Shown here: positions 10,135 through 52,385 of the stretch, piece after piece | How the letters are laid out: the number at the start of each line of letters is the position of its first letter | Position numbering within the stretch: position 1 is the first letter of the stretch | Source of the DNA: Haloterrigena turkmenica DSM 5511 | Lineage (GTDB): Archaea > Halobacteriota > Halobacteria > Halobacteriales > Natrialbaceae | Assembly (NCBI RefSeq): GCF_000025325.1 | Contig: NC_013745.1 | Span: 62,001 to 126,000 of the forward strand | Direction of reading: 5' to 3' | Length of the DNA: 64,000 bases | Translations under genes and position numbers: made by a program | Notes under the pieces: generated by a model | The model's input: the letters and a program-made list of their open reading frames with translations, nothing else | Told to the model about the DNA's origin: nothing | Database searches by the model: none

Positions 10135-10148
10135 GCTGACGTCAAGCT

Positions 10149-10208
10149 CGCAAATCTCTGATTTGCGTTGTTCGACGAAGCGTGAGCTTCGTCGGGCTCG
10201 CTGAGCCC
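10149..10208. repeat. array of three tandem perfect hairpins
   Basis: Three perfect inverted repeats follow one another. Unit 1 has arms CGCAAATC/GATTTGCG with loop TCT (10149-10167). Unit 2 has arms GACGAAGC/GCTTCGTC with loop GTGA (10174-10193). Unit 3 has arms GGGCTC/GAGCCC with loop GCT (10194-10208). No long T run follows. It could end the dehydratase transcript or be a mobile palindromic element. The geometry matches the arrays inside the IS6-type relics at 48123-48238 and 51977-52041. Confidence 0.8.
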
Positions 10209-47666: not shown

Positions 47667-47681
47667 AGATAACATCGAGGG

Positions 47682-48482
47682 GCACTGTCTAGTTTAGCAC
47701 CTCCGCTGGCGTCTATCCGTTGAGTGACTGGTGCGGTCGCTGTGTGTTATAGTAGTGTTCGAACTGTTCAAGATATTCTTGTACACTCGCCCGACTGCCC
47801 GCCCACGAGTGATGGAAGCAGTCGACACGCATTTTGAAGGTATAAAACCACTTTCGATCAGATTTCGATCGACATAGTCGGGCTGACCCCTCAACCTGAA
47901 CCGAGAGAGGGCAGTCAGATAGTCGTAACCATCGGCAAGAAACACAGCCTTGGAGAGATCGTGTTTCTGGTCAATTTATGCAGAAACGCAGCGGCTGGAT
48001 CAGTGCCTCGTCGTCCGAACACTGCGATATCGAGAATTAGCCGCGAGTCATGGACTATTGCAGTATATGGCCAAGACCATTCGCCGTTGATCTTGACAGC
48101 AGTTTCATCAATAGCGACCCGCGACGGCTTCACCGCCCTCAGAACGCTCCACGTTCTGCTGTCGAGGCGAATCTTCGATTCGCCGACCATTGGAGCGCAA
48201 AGCGCTCCAAGAGACCGCACGAGAGCTTCAATCTCGTGGACGCCGGCGGGTCTGGAACGCTGTCTGCCAGCCGATGTACCCAGTGCAGATTGCTTGGTGA
48301 GAGCGTTCAACGCTGAGAGGCGAAGAATCGCTTATGTCTCTCGAAGCGAATACCCGTCCGCTCACGCTCCTAATATTCATCAAATTCCGCCGTGTAGCAT
48401 TCGCTGAGCGGGTCTGCGAGCGACATAGCCACACTAGCTCTACGACCTGCTCGCTTCTCAAACTGCGCTAACTAGACAGTAC
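47682..48482 (-). mobile_element. IS6-family element relic, copy A
   Basis: Terminal inverted repeats are GCACTGTCTAGTTTAGC at the left and its near-complement at 48467-48482. The minus strand encodes a broken IS6 (ISH14/15-like) transposase: RVAIDETAVKINGEWSW (first Asp of DDE), DPAAAFLHKLT, VFLADGYDYLTALSR and a scrambled terminal YYNTQRPHQSLNG region. Several frameshifts inactivate it. No target duplication is recognisable. A five-unit hairpin array interrupts the gene at 48123-48238. Confidence 0.8.
48123..48238. repeat. five-unit tandem hairpin array in IS6 relic A
   Basis: Units: GACGGC/ACCGCC (decayed, 48123-48137), CAGAACG/CGTTCTG (decayed centre, 48140-48158), GGCGAATC/GATTCGCC (perfect, 48166-48184), TTGGAGCGC/GCGCTCCAA (perfect, 48190-48210) and CACGAGA/TCTCGTG (decayed centre, 48218-48238). 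Loops are TTC or AAA in the perfect units. The two perfect ones are absent from copy B. Confidence 0.85.
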
Positions 48483-48578
48483 TGAAAACCTGAATATATG
48501 TAGTTACTAGCAAATATCTATGCAATAGCTTGCCTAATCCTGCCAAGAACCTTCATGGTTTTTCGCTGTATATGGGAT

Positions 48579-48884
48579 ATGCTCGACGAGATCATGGCAG
48601 CGTTAGCGAATGGACATCGTCGGCAGTTGTTGATCGGCCTTCTGGAACACAATCCGCAGGAAGCAGTGCAGACACCGGAAGGTGTGCAGGTCGACGGTGA
48701 GCAGTTAGCGGATCTCCAAGTCGAGATGTATCATAATCACCTGCCACGGTTAGAGGTGGCCGGATTCATCACGTGGGATCGGGAGCAGCACGTGGTCGAG
48801 AAAGGCCCGCAATTCGAGCAGATCAAGCCGGTGCTGGAAGTGTTCGAGGAGAACGCGGATGAACTACCAGTCGACTGGCCATGA
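48579..48884 (+). CDS. small winged-helix protein (DUF7344-like)
   Basis: A 101-residue protein starting MLDEIMAALANGHRRQLLIGLLEHNP, the opening of haloarchaeal winged-helix (ArsR-like, DUF7344-type) regulators. YHNHLPRLEVAGFITWDRE is the recognition and wing region. Upstream ATG 48555 adds eight atypical residues. It is convergent with the small gene at 48933-49205. The target is unknown. Confidence 0.7.
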   Translation: MLDEIMAALANGHRRQLLIGLLEHNPQEAVQTPEGVQVDGEQLADLQVEMYHNHLPRLEVAGFITWDREQHVVEKGPQFEQIKPVLEVFEENADELPVDWP

Positions 48885-48932
48885 CTGGTCGGGGTCGGTG
48901 CCGCCCCTACGCTCTGGACACGCAGCGAGTGG

Positions 48933-49205
48933 TCAGTCTTCGCCAGGTGGGGTGGTGATCCGGAGTTCGCCGTCGACCGCGTAGAAGTAGCCCCGATTGA
49001 GTAGCCGCGTCAGCGCATATTCGGCATCGTCGGGTTCGAGCGCCAGGTCTTCGTCCGCACAGAGTACGTCGACGGCCTGGTCACGGTTGATCGCTGGCGC
49101 CACGCTTTGGCTGCTATCGCCGGCTGTCTCCGTGATAGAGGTCTCGGTGACAGTATAGGCGTCCGTCACCCAGTCGGGGAGCGGTGGGCGTGGATCGTCG
49201 ACCAT
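48933..49205 (-). CDS. small haloarchaeal protein, possibly winged-helix
   Basis: A 90-residue acidic protein (MVDDPRPPLPDWVTDAY). The C-terminal half, with INRDQAVDVLCADEDLALEPDDAEYALTRLLNRGYFYAVDGELRI written here in outline, alternates helix and a terminal hairpin in a way that suggests a winged helix. No family is recognised with certainty. ATG 49211 is an alternative start. Confidence 0.55.
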   Translation of the reverse strand: MVDDPRPPLPDWVTDAYTVTETSITETAGDSSQSVAPAINRDQAVDVLCADEDLALEPDDAEYALTRLLNRGYFYAVDGELRITTPPGED

Positions 49206-49336
49206 TGACATATATCAGATCACCTCTATATGGAGAAGACACTACCATCCGGCTTAACTCTATTCCCGTATCGAAGAAAAGAACATCCGCTGCTACTGTC
49301 CACTAGTACCGATCTTGCCCTGTGCTATAGTAGGAA

Positions 49337-49828
49337 TTAGAAATAATTACTCATATTTGGTACAGAGAGATGATCAAGAGCTGTATCAATCGCTGTTGTG
49401 AGTTCGTCGAGTGACTTAAAGAAGCGGTTGCTGAGTGCCGCTTGTAGCTGTCTCCAGCACTCTTCGACAGGATTTAGCTCTGGTGAGTACGATGGCAGCG
49501 TCACGAAGGCGAGGTCGTTACGGGCCGTAAGGTCCGTGACGGCCGACGCCTGAAAATACGGCGCTCCATCCAACACAATAATCAAATCACCTTCGAACTC
49601 TTTGCATAACGCGAGAATGAAATGTTTGGCGTGGGCGGCGGTCACGTACTCTTCAAATCGAGCGAAAAAGCGATCACCGTGTTCGGTGATCGCGCCCAGC
49701 AAACACGTCCAGTCGCGTTGGCCAGATAATTCGACAGACGGCCGCGTGCCGCGGGGAAACCACGCGGCACGCGGCTCAACTTGCACGGATTTCTTGGTTT
49801 GATCGATACAGACTACTGTGGCGTCCAT
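49337..49828 (-). CDS. IS630-type transposase, catalytic part (ORF B)
   Basis: 163 residues with the DDE residues in VVCIDQTKK, IVLDGAPYF and SPELNPVEECW. It lacks a start of its own in the family sense and is made by -1 slippage from ORF A at the A7 run (49839-49845), which joins LKKKRRE to MDATVV. The gene contains strong perfect hairpins at 49670-49693 and 49741-49775. Confidence 0.88.
   Translation of the reverse strand: MDATVVCIDQTKKSVQVEPRAAWFPRGTRPSVELSGQRDWTCLLGAITEHGDRFFARFEEYVTAAHAKHFILALCKEFEGDLIIVLDGAPYFQASAVTDLTARNDLAFVTLPSYSPELNPVEECWRQLQAALSNRFFKSLDELTTAIDTALDHLSVPNMSNYF
49670..49693. repeat. perfect 10-bp hairpin inside transposase gene
   Basis: Arms GCGATCACCG/CGGTGATCGC, loop TGTT. 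Confidence 0.75.
49741..49775. repeat. perfect 13-bp hairpin inside transposase gene
   Basis: Arms GCCGCGTGCCGCG/CGCGGCACGCGGC with a 9-nt loop. Confidence 0.75.
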
Positions 49829-50349
49829 CTCCCGCCGCTTTTTTTGAGCTCATCGTGGAACTCATCTTGTTCATCTTCGTCGGCTTCAGCGGCTGAGCGG
49901 CGCGGTTTTTGATAGCTCAATCCCGCTTCTTTCAGCAACCGCCGGCAACTCGGGATTGAGTATTCCACATCGTAGGCTTCCTCGAGATACTGCTGGACGA
50001 GCGCCGGCGTCCACGCCGGCGCGTCGAATCCAACTTCTTCGGGTGAGTCGTGGACAACGTTTTCGAACTCTTCTTGCTCTTTTTCTGAGAGCTTTCTCTT
50101 TCTCCCAGATCGGTGAGCATCAGTAACGGCCTGCTCAAGCGACTCGTTAGTGTCGAGTCGTTTGAGCCAACTATAGATCGTCCGTCGTTGAACGTCGTAC
50201 CACTCGGCTAGTTCAGTCTGCGTAACACCGTTTTTGTACGCTATTGCTACCAAAAGCCGTTGTGTCGGCTTCTTTCCTTCCACGTTGTCGAGGGCATCTT
50301 GCAATTCCTCGACGGAGATCTCGTCGAGATGATCCACTGCATTTAGCAA
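49813..50349 (-). CDS. IS630-type transposase, DNA-binding part (ORF A)
   Basis: 178 residues. The helix-turn-helix lies at TQTELAEWYDVQRRTIYSWL, followed by the linker SGRKRKLSEKEQEEF and DAPAWTPALVQQYLEEAY. It ends soon after the slippery A7 run with an out-of-frame tail (SGGRWTPQ). The normal product is likely the A-B fusion. Confidence 0.88.
   Translation of the reverse strand: MLNAVDHLDEISVEELQDALDNVEGKKPTQRLLVAIAYKNGVTQTELAEWYDVQRRTIYSWLKRLDTNESLEQAVTDAHRSGRKRKLSEKEQEEFENVVHDSPEEVGFDAPAWTPALVQQYLEEAYDVEYSIPSCRRLLKEAGLSYQKPRRSAAEADEDEQDEFHDELKKSGGRWTPQ
49839..49845 (-). promoter_or_regulatory. programmed -1 frameshift site (A7)
   Basis: AAAAAAA on the minus strand at the end of ORF A. 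A -1 shift continues directly into ORF B. Confidence 0.65.
50001..50022. repeat. perfect 9-bp hairpin inside transposase gene
   Basis: Arms GCGCCGGCG/CGCCGGCGC, loop TCCA, within ORF A. Confidence 0.75.
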
Positions 50350-50427
50350 CGTTCTCTGAGTAGAAATTTCTAACGGGTACTATAGCTACCATCAGAGTAT
50401 AATGCGCTGTACTGCGTATCCATCCGT

Positions 50428-50598
50428 ATGTCGGAAAAGGAACTCGACGGTAAGCGACTCAATCGTGGTGACGACGCTACCGATACCCAGACCGACTCGA
50501 CGATCGTTAGTGATGGCGGCGTTCAGACCGGTGACGACGGTCAGCGGAAGCTAGAAGGGATGCACTGCCGGGGTGCCAACCGTCCCACGCACGACTAG
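50428..50598 (+). CDS. small acidic hypothetical protein (56 aa)
   Basis: MSEKELDGKRLNRGDDAT opens an Asp/Thr/Gly-rich 56-residue frame with typical haloarchaeal codon choice, ending HCRGANRPTHD. No family is recognised. The last codons overlap the GGTGCC repeats. Confidence 0.45.
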   Translation: MSEKELDGKRLNRGDDATDTQTDSTIVSDGGVQTGDDGQRKLEGMHCRGANRPTHD

Positions 50599-50711
50599 GG
50601 TGCCGGTGTGATGAGACGGGGGTGACCAATGTAAACCGCACGAGAGCACCAGTGAGGTGCCAGTATCGACGCGCCATCTGGGTGCCATCGTGACCGCACT
50701 AGTTGGGTGCC
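50571..50711. repeat. GGTGCC iteron-like repeats
   Basis: GGTGCC, mostly preceded by G, occurs at 50571, 50598, 50654, 50680 and 50705, with a degenerate GGGTGACC at 50620. Intervals are 27, 22, ~35, 25 and 25 nt. CGCAC-N-AG motifs sit between several of them. Confidence 0.5.
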
Positions 50712-51224
50712 GTCTTGTGCGAAACACCGTGGTTCCAGTAACAGCAGATCATGTGGACTCGAGATCACTCATGAACTCGACAGCAGTAGGGGACTGAGGG
50801 TCTCATAGAAGGATCCGCATGACGTTCTTTTCACCCAATCTGGAGCGAACTATCCGTTCAATACACGTGCGAATAAAGCGCTCCGCAGACAAGGGATGCT
50901 GCTCGATTTCGGTGGAATAGTATCATAAAATATACTGTGGCTCCTGATTCTCAAACCACTATGCAAAGATTGGACAACTACTATGCGACTGAGTAGCGTG
51001 GTTCCACTTGATCTGCTTCCGGATGACACTGGCTGGAGGCAGATCGGTCCACCGGCTACCAACTATATCTGCGCCTCGATTGGCTGCGTAGTAGCATACG
51101 AAGGGGGCTAATTACCCCTTTCCATCACCACCGGAGCAGTAATTACCTGTATTGCAGAAAGTCGGTTAGACTTGCAAGCGCTACGTGTAGGACTATCCAC
51201 AGAGGGCTGGGCGATTCATATAGT
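50712..51224. other. intergenic stretch without a convincing gene
   Basis: Only short frames without family resemblance are seen. Confidence 0.4.
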
Positions 51225-51518
51225 ATGTCCACTCCCCGATCGTCCGAAGACGAATGCCATCACATCTACACAACTGACGAGAACCGCAGTCTGAGCATTG
51301 CGATTGTAGAGGCGGTTGCAGAGTACGAGAATGCCAATTTGATGGAACGTGAGTTCAGACTGTACGATAGCATAAACCCGTCAGCACTCAATACGTTGTT
51401 CCAATCCAATCAGGAGGCTGCTGTAACAGTATCGTTTGCCGTTAGTAATTCTCAAGTCTTTCTACGAGACATTGGTGACGGAGTCGAAATTTGTGTTTCC
51501 GATCTCCCGAATGGCTAA
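51225..51518 (+). CDS. HalOD1 output-domain protein
   Basis: A 97-residue protein with the HalOD1 pattern: SLSIAIVEAVAEYENANL, RLYDSINPSALNTLF and TVSFAVSNSQVFLRDIGDGVEI. It is a second member of the family besides 7381-7647, with an AT-richer coding style. Role unknown. Confidence 0.75.
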   Translation: MSTPRSSEDECHHIYTTDENRSLSIAIVEAVAEYENANLMEREFRLYDSINPSALNTLFQSNQEAAVTVSFAVSNSQVFLRDIGDGVEICVSDLPNG

Positions 51519-51582
51519 ACAATAGCCGTTCCACTCTCAGTCCGCAGATCGCCGATTGAGAGAGATCCAACCTCGTTAGATG

Positions 51583-51731
51583 TCATTCTTCCTCAGAATT
51601 CGGAGGGTCAATACCAGCAATCCACTTTTGATTACAATTAACACATTCGAGTTCAACTTTACCCCCTGTTCAAGCAAGATGCTGAAATTTTCCATCCCAC
51701 AGTTCGGGCAAACAGCACTTTCCATACTCAT
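51583..51731 (-). pseudogene. small zinc-ribbon gene with single-base deletion
   Basis: Frame 1 reads MSMESAVCPNCGMENFSILLEQG. Frame 2 continues as KVELECVNCNQKWIAGIDPP with a natural stop. Adding one G to a G5 run joins them into a CPNCG/CVNC zinc ribbon of about 50 residues. It is a broken gene or a sequence error. Confidence 0.55.
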
Positions 51732-51792
51732 TTTTCCTCTCTCTTTGTAAAAGTTATCGCGTAAGAAAGGTGTAAAAAAATGAGCGACAAAG

Positions 51793-52329
51793 GAACACAG
51801 CCTCGGAGAGATCGTGTTTCTCGGTCAATTTATGCAGGAACGCAGCGGCTGGATCAGTGACTCGTTGTCCGAACACTGCGACATCGAGAATCAGCCGTGA
51901 GTCGAGATCCATTGTAGCATATACCCAAGACCAGTCGCTGTTGGTTTTGACAGTGGTTTTATCAATAGCGACCCGCGACGGCTTCGCCGTCCTCAGAACG
52001 CTTCGCGTTCTGATGGGCCGCACGAGAGCTTTGCTCTCGTGGACGTCGGCGGGTCTGAGACGCTGTCAGCCAGCCGCTGTACCCAGTGCCAGATTGCTTG
52101 GTGAGAGCGTTCAACGCCGAGCAAGCGAAGAATCGTTTGTGTCTCTCGAAGCGAACACCCGGTCGCGTGGAGGCGGACGGCGAACACCCTGACGGGCGTC
52201 GCCGTCCGCTCACGCTCCCAAGCTTCATCAAATTCCGTCGCGTAGCACTCGCTGAGCAGGTCTGCGAGCATCATTCCAACTCAACTCCACGATCTGCTCA
52301 CTTCTCAAACCGCGCTAACTAGACGGTGC
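51793..52329 (-). mobile_element. IS6-family element relic, copy B (truncated)
   Basis: Same family as copy A. It retains the right inverted repeat (52314-52329) and the transposase N-terminus (MMLADLLSECYATEFDEAWE, GCSLRETQTILRLLGVERSH), then in another frame KPSRVAIDKTTVKTNSDWSW and DPAAAFLHKLTEKHDLSEA, and is cut off after AVFL. A three-unit hairpin array at 51977-52041 separates the two frames. Confidence 0.8.
51977..52041. repeat. three-unit tandem hairpin array in IS6 relic B
   Basis: Perfect units GACGGC/GCCGTC loop TTC (51977-51991), CAGAACGC/GCGTTCTG loop TTC (51994-52012) and CACGAGAGC/GCTCTCGTG loop TTT (52021-52041). These correspond to units 1, 2 and 5 of copy A. Confidence 0.88.
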
Positions 52330-52385
52330 CGAGTAGGCAAATATATCAGTGAATGTGGCCTGAGAGCGCGTGGTCAAGTTGATGC

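Follow-up and report, generated by a model that had tools for sequence, protein, structure and literature searches.

Among the described systems closest in plan to the elements reported here, the bacterial repetitive extragenic palindromes (REPs) tagged with CGTC are mostly inverted dimers, have intragenic copies and come without a transposase, according to the available portion of Di Nocera et al. (2013; PMC3733652). That portion lists five bacterial phyla and no archaeal one, and counts dRS3 of Neisseria and RPE-4 and RPE-6 of Rickettsia among them. The SMR-A and SMR-B elements of Haloquadratum walsbyi are tiny and leave no target duplication (Dyall-Smith et al., 2011; PMC3119063). Their frequent insertion sites are IS605-type palindromes and further mobile elements, and the families are alike without sequence similarity. 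Mobilisation has been called unknown for the CGTC REPs and 'enigmatic' for the SMRs. We analyzed a 64-kb stretch of DNA from Haloterrigena turkmenica DSM 5511 (NC_013745.1, positions 62,001 to 126,000; this whole stretch is the window), in which two IS6-type relics carry arrays of short hairpins. The arrays contain two modules, M1 (56 nucleotides) and M2 (51 nucleotides), with two hairpins each. We regard them as paired-hairpin insertion elements of a REP/SMR-like kind, in a new archaeal variant found across the class, and set them beside the SMRs by description. They are probably non-autonomous mobile elements of haloarchaea, analogous to the bacterial inverted REP dimers.

M1 resembles the head-to-head (HH) dimers of CGTC REPs in having CGTC at the hairpin foot (a flanking C plus GTC), stems of 8-9 bp, an inverted pair with the tags outward, intragenic copies and no dedicated transposase. 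However, the REP loops have 4-5 nucleotides and those of M1 have 3. The REPs have AT first pairs and a CCA tail, whereas the M1 stems begin with CAGAA and CACGAGA and no CCA tail is present. Due to these differences in loop length, first pairs and tail, we did not file M1 as a CGTC REP member. Exact ends, a target rule and nested modules are features of M1 and M2 that do not occur in the available part of the CGTC REP description. With the Haloquadratum SMRs, M1 shares small size, absence of target duplication and of a transposase, and insertion into IS605 palindromes, a likeness by description only. The SMRs are 80-110 bp long with prominent terminal inverted repeats, whereas the inverted ends of the 56-nucleotide M1 are only GTCC/GGAC; M1 and M2 together make 107 nucleotides. 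Palindrome-associated transposable elements (PATEs) and the IS200/IS605 group are like M1 in their palindromes near both ends, lack of target duplication and short target motif. M1 did not turn up as an IS605 element end in the loci viewed. It lies within end palindromes of the IS605 type, and it occurs in genomes without a match to Y1 transposase. The mitochondrial double-hairpin or repetitive hairpin-forming elements (PMC2800124) likewise have paired hairpins, conserved stems, changing loops and tandem growth, although they are organellar and are likened by plan, not by sequence.

A literature search, with most subscription papers outside its reach, found no publication describing M1 or M2, and searching by element sequence gave chance primer matches only. 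A text match in RepRanger 2025 (PMC12306157) returned no haloarchaeal names. M1 and M2 would extend REP-like dimers, reported from bacteria, to a whole archaeal class. They provide exact ends and a catalogue of empty sites, together with a rule for the target (C|G without duplication), and the genetically workable haloarchaea would be a tractable system for finding the mover enzyme.

Composition of the two hairpin arrays

The relics, their hairpins (arm-loop-arm) and the modules (hairpins in parentheses) lie in the window as follows.

47681..48482, minus strand: IS6-type relic copy A, terminal repeats at both ends, GGCACTGTCTAG... / ...CTAGACAGTAC
48123..48137: native transposase hairpin of copy A, decayed; belongs to the empty site, outside the insertion
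48140-48158 and 48218-48238: decayed copy A counterparts of copy B hairpins 2 and 3
48166-48184: extra perfect hairpin of copy A, GGCGAATC-TTC-GATTCGCC
48190-48210: other extra perfect hairpin of copy A, TTGGAGCGC-AAA-GCGCTCCAA
48135..48241, plus strand: M1 of copy A, split by M2 (56 nucleotides = 48135-48161 + 48213-48241), covariance matches
48162..48212, plus strand: M2 of copy A, between the two hairpins of M1, TCGA(GGCGAATC ttc GATTCGCC)GACCA(TTGGAGCGC aaa GCGCTCCAA)GA, model E 1.8e-21
51781..52330, minus strand: IS6-type relic copy B, low-coordinate side truncated, right end ...CTAGACGGTGCC
51977..51991: native transposase hairpin of copy B, GACGGC-TTC-GCCGTC, empty-site sequence
51993-52013: second hairpin of copy B, (T)CAGAACGC-TTC-GCGTTCTG(A)
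52021-52041: third hairpin of copy B, CACGAGAGC-TTT-GCTCTCGTG
51989..52044, plus strand: M1 of copy B, complete 56 nucleotides, GTCCT(CAGAACGC ttc GCGTTCTG)ATGGGCCG(CACGAGAGC ttt GCTCTCGTG)GAC, covariance E 2.8e-30 over the full model

The first-pass annotation had placed the hairpins, arms and loops of both copies correctly, and the copy A array is indeed 51 nucleotides longer than that of copy B. The copy A transposase, on the minus strand, is disrupted by the array and by further damage. The carriers are of IS6 type: an intact copy matches PF13610 (DDE_Tnp_IS240) and the carrier terminal repeats are present. Since intact copies of the same IS exist in the H. turkmenica genome (G000:C4:57907-58650 and C2:168500; uninterrupted transposase frames of 227-240 codons), the arrays could be compared with empty sites. 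In an alignment of 21 own-genome copies, the intact ones read CGACGGCTGCGCC|GTCGGCGGG with nothing between, which is DPP|TAQPSRVAID on the gene strand. At the position of hairpin 1 the empty copies have GACGGCTGCGCCGTC or near variants, and in intact copies this hairpin is the coding sequence GACGGC-TGC-GCCGTC. Hairpin 1 (GACGGC-nnn-GCCGTC) is native coding sequence and hairpins 2-5 are inserted, so the claim that the array hairpins are inserted units stands for the latter and not for the former.

The consensus of M1 is GTCCT(CAGAAxxx nnn xxxTTCTG)ATGGGCCG(CACGAGAxx nnn xxTCTCGTG)GAC and that of M2 is TCGA(GGCGAATC nnn GATTCGCC)GACCA(TTGGAGnGC nnn GCnCTCCAA)GA. An M2-type module nested between the M1 hairpins turned the array of three hairpins into one of five. 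Arrays do gain units, as had been proposed; these enter as whole two-hairpin modules, placed between the two hairpins of an earlier module, rather than one hairpin at a time. M1 adds 56 nucleotides and M1 with M2 adds 107, neither divisible by 3, and for this reason the transposase halves lie in different frames across the array, which had also been noted. Among 86 copies at the IS6 site, the insert sizes were 0-1 nucleotides (23 copies), 55-56 (36), 104-107 (25), 67 (1) and 123 (1). We considered whether the two hairpins might flank a gene in a larger, autonomous element and rejected this, because the spacings in the examined loci with a matching right half were only 0 or 50-51 nucleotides. 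The window contains 1 run of at least three perfect hairpins and 6 runs of at least two, where Markov-3 shuffles lead one to expect 0.025 and 1.35. Immediately downstream of copy A, window 48483-49000 recurs with 93% identity on a different replicon (G000:C2:330140-330656).

Distribution, insertion sites and pairing

The array is a haloarchaea-wide element, not an IS6-specific expansion. When 125 genomes of the family were searched with the array, 49 gave matches, some without IS6 nearby, and the M1 covariance model matched 271 of 292 genomes of the class Halobacteria at E 0.001 or better. About 19 candidates were scored per genome in this survey, so its copy numbers are lower bounds; H. turkmenica had at least 17 matches, and 45 at E 0.1. 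A strict M1 pattern gave 37 stretches among 84,980 species, haloarchaeal without exception, and no match in IMG/VR. M1 was not found on the H. walsbyi plasmid PL47, the replicon of that species that was searched. Besides the main IS6 site, M1 occupies other IS6 sites, TnpB genes, IS605 ends, a chromosomal hydrolase gene and intergenic places, and the proposal of an expansion within the IS6 transposase falls with this range of hosts.

Removing the 56 nucleotides and joining the flanks restores the conserved frame in IS6 (DPP|TA, RTA|TPVR, RGTDPA|AAFL, DVDD|AVFLVDG) and in TnpB (G|VDLG, FA|ASKLW). We take the G|VDLG site to be the RuvC motif. Tallied by eye, M1 is preceded by C in 88 and followed by G in 89 of 91 copies; its CGTC-type tag, which reads C|GTCC on the left and G(A/G)AC|G on the right, is seen in 88-89 of these. 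M2 is without this tag (TG|TCGA). Every M1 site can be explained without a target duplication, and M1 lies in sense to the gene in some copies and antisense in others. Further TnpB genes carry M1 with nested M2 in their 3' part, and so do other places without IS6. M2 alone forms an exact 51-nucleotide in-frame insert (17 codons) in TnpB genes, and about 10 alignable homologues are empty at this site, CTCGTTG|CCACGG. One such TnpB (L141) keeps an open frame of 478 codons, and several other copies have a stop in the loop. The copies L139, L140, L142, L096 and L105 have the common loop TAC, which produces an in-frame TAG, whereas the loop of L141 is TTC. In Salinigranum marinum (L351, NZ_CP100463.1), an annotated TnpB beside an IS200/IS605 tnpA reads through a 57-nucleotide M1, whose second loop has 4 nucleotides, and gains 19 codons in frame.

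The chromosomal gene is an Abhydrolase_3 (PF07859) gene in which M1, at G000:C1:1705729-1705784 (L048:5729-5784), lies exactly in the HGGG motif, HG|GG. Of six congeners, four have the orthologous gene uninterrupted at this site, and H. turkmenica and G026 carry 56 nucleotides there, at the same nucleotide. By synonymous divergence (dS), the G026 gene is nearest to the uninterrupted G025 gene (0.10, vs 0.39 to the H. turkmenica copy), indicating that M1 entered twice at the same nucleotide, that an old insertion was lost on two occasions, or that an allele was transferred. The H. turkmenica copy is otherwise open, with a ratio of nonsynonymous to synonymous divergence (dN/dS) of about 0.1 against its relatives, and the G026 copy is further damaged. 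M1 and M2 are thus found at unrelated sites with exact ends and no target duplication, with presence and absence at nucleotide precision between relatives. Many transposase and TnpB 'pseudogenes', and this one host hydrolase gene, owe their frame breaks to them.

In M1, the outer pairs of the stems are nearly invariant, as are the linkers and end tags; the inner stem pairs covary and the loops are almost free. Stem compensation amounted to 14 two-sided cells, a value reached in none of 500 shuffles. At non-IS6 sites, where the search mode that found the copies favours stem conservation, the non-consensus stem cells comprised 78 other Watson-Crick pairs, 4 G-T pairs and 11 mismatches. The few G-T pairs among the changed cells point to pairing as DNA rather than RNA. 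In seven pairs of same-site copies with flanks 90-95% identical, the loops differed at 71% of positions. Among own-genome copies, chosen by IS6 similarity, off-majority positions made up 24-54% in loops, 18-23% in flanks and 4-13% in stems. This loop diversity could come either from a pool of elements with diverse loops that insert repeatedly or from rapid change of the loops in hairpins formed in the cell.

Possible mode of movement and alternative readings

M1 and M2 may move as folded single strands, with stem geometry and the terminal tag (C)GTC...GAC(G) as recognition features. Joining into a CG step would be the work of an enzyme acting in trans, most likely one of the HUH/Y1 type (IS200/IS605-like) or a host enzyme of another kind. 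Under selection for a substrate that can fold, compensatory changes would maintain stem pairing while the loops drift. The IS6 transposase would be a frequent, tolerated landing place, and the IS6 carriers presumably spread with transposase from intact copies. We consider the chance of an HUH/Y1-type mover a little below even and that of an unknown host enzyme slightly lower still. The genomes lacking M1 are enriched for absence of Y1, which was found in 7 of the 20 listed against about 194 of the 271 bearing M1 (Fisher p ~0.001-0.003), although the counts are hand-tallied and the general mobile-element load confounds the comparison. A bolder view, which we regard as rather unlikely, is that a so far unknown and probably host-encoded archaeal enzyme reads hairpin geometry and the CG step instead of sequence throughout the class, with repeat insertion at one nucleotide and precise, gene-restoring excision.

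Several observations weigh against mobile elements of this kind. Movement has not been directly seen and no enzyme could be linked; about 77 of the 271 M1-bearing genomes have no Y1 match, which rejects a Y1 transposase as a necessary mover. The Y1 loci viewed were never bounded by M1-like element ends: M1-like matches were seen in 9 of 30, none resembling an element end and some inside IS605-type end palindromes. Part of the M1 compensation may reflect two or three founder subtypes. Insert presence is scattered over the IS6 tree, with 16 label changes and a forced minimum of 5, and gene conversion between IS copies, instead of gain and loss, could have produced this scatter. Due to such possible scrambling and the preferential sampling of M1-bearing copies, the tree is not decisive as a count of independent insertions.

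An origin in place, with the polymerase switching templates where short palindromes occur (quasi-palindrome growth) so that geometry multiplies and no sequence moves, would suit the near-random loops, the near-perfect stems even in relics and the plan common to several unrelated arm families. It is largely refuted already by the identical 51- and 56-nucleotide sequences, linkers and ends at unrelated sites and in different genera, and the insert sizes are quantised. One-sided stem changes also exceed two-sided ones at the main IS6 site (22 vs 4 cells), contrary to in-place correction, and we hold this origin to be highly improbable. Nearly as improbable is M1 acting at the RNA level, as an intron-like removed insert or a translational bypass, which would explain the intact halves of interrupted genes. 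The full open reading frame regained on joining in many IS6 and TnpB copies and the low dN/dS of the H. turkmenica hydrolase agree with it. However, M1 stands in both orientations relative to genes, wobble accounts for just 4 of the 93 non-consensus cells at non-IS6 sites, and the interrupted G026 hydrolase has decayed further. The in-frame 57-nucleotide M1 with its 4-nucleotide loop would be needless if M1 were removed, and an Rfam scan of the window gave no match at the gathering threshold.

Movement through RNA, by reverse transcription of a hairpin RNA, has somewhat better prospects but is still unlikely. Absence of target duplication, free loops and a foldable transcript would be expected from it, and the same route was proposed for double-hairpin elements of fungal mitochondria (see the discussion in PMC2800124), whereas the excess of Watson-Crick over wobble compensation favors DNA pairing. 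That the hairpins are conserved coding sequence of this IS6 lineage has virtually no chance. Hairpin 1 is conserved and coding in the intact copies, but hairpins 2-5 break the frame and are not present there; the intact relatives are without the array.

Further paired-hairpin families

We scanned contiguous, unbiased stretches for two perfect hairpins (stem of at least 7, gap of at most 14) and compared them with shuffles. The hairpin pairs numbered 13 vs 0/0/0 in shuffles on the own plasmid C3, 13 vs 2/2/2 in 540 kb of the own chromosome and 21 vs 2/2/4 in 400 kb of another genome. Single hairpins showed a modest excess only, and it is the pairs that stand out genome-wide. Neither of the two refuting conditions set out in the first-pass annotation holds: the array is missing from intact relatives, and hairpin pairs are more numerous than in shuffled sequence. 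Several additional families recur, each with its own linker and with unrelated arms, among them M3 (GTCCCCAGAA..TTCTGGTGTGCGAACGAGACGC..GCGTCTCGTCAAC). M4 (TCTCGGAAACC..GGTTTCCGATGAGTCCGCAGAATC..GATTCTGCGAGA) is nested in M3, and the nesting overall is of M2 or M4 within M1 or M3. A further family reads GAGGGAC..GTCCCTC-aagca-GCCGGCGC..GCGCCGGC-GAC. The suggestion of an element defined by geometry rather than sequence thus holds between families (M1-M4 and others), where the plan recurs with different arms, but not within a family, where linkers, tags and outer stems are conserved.

The loci L272, L293, L176, L181 and L200 carry differing paired-hairpin elements at matching spots of IS605-type end palindromes, and SMR-A of Haloquadratum is likewise described as inserted at such palindromes. 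In the window itself, positions 10146-10197 (to ~10220) contain the perfect hairpins CGCAAATC-tct-GATTTGCG and CGACGAAGC-gtga-GCTTCGTCG, followed by CGCTGAG..CTCAGCG. This run matches the M2 model weakly (E 4.9e-5) and is probably a member of another paired-hairpin family.

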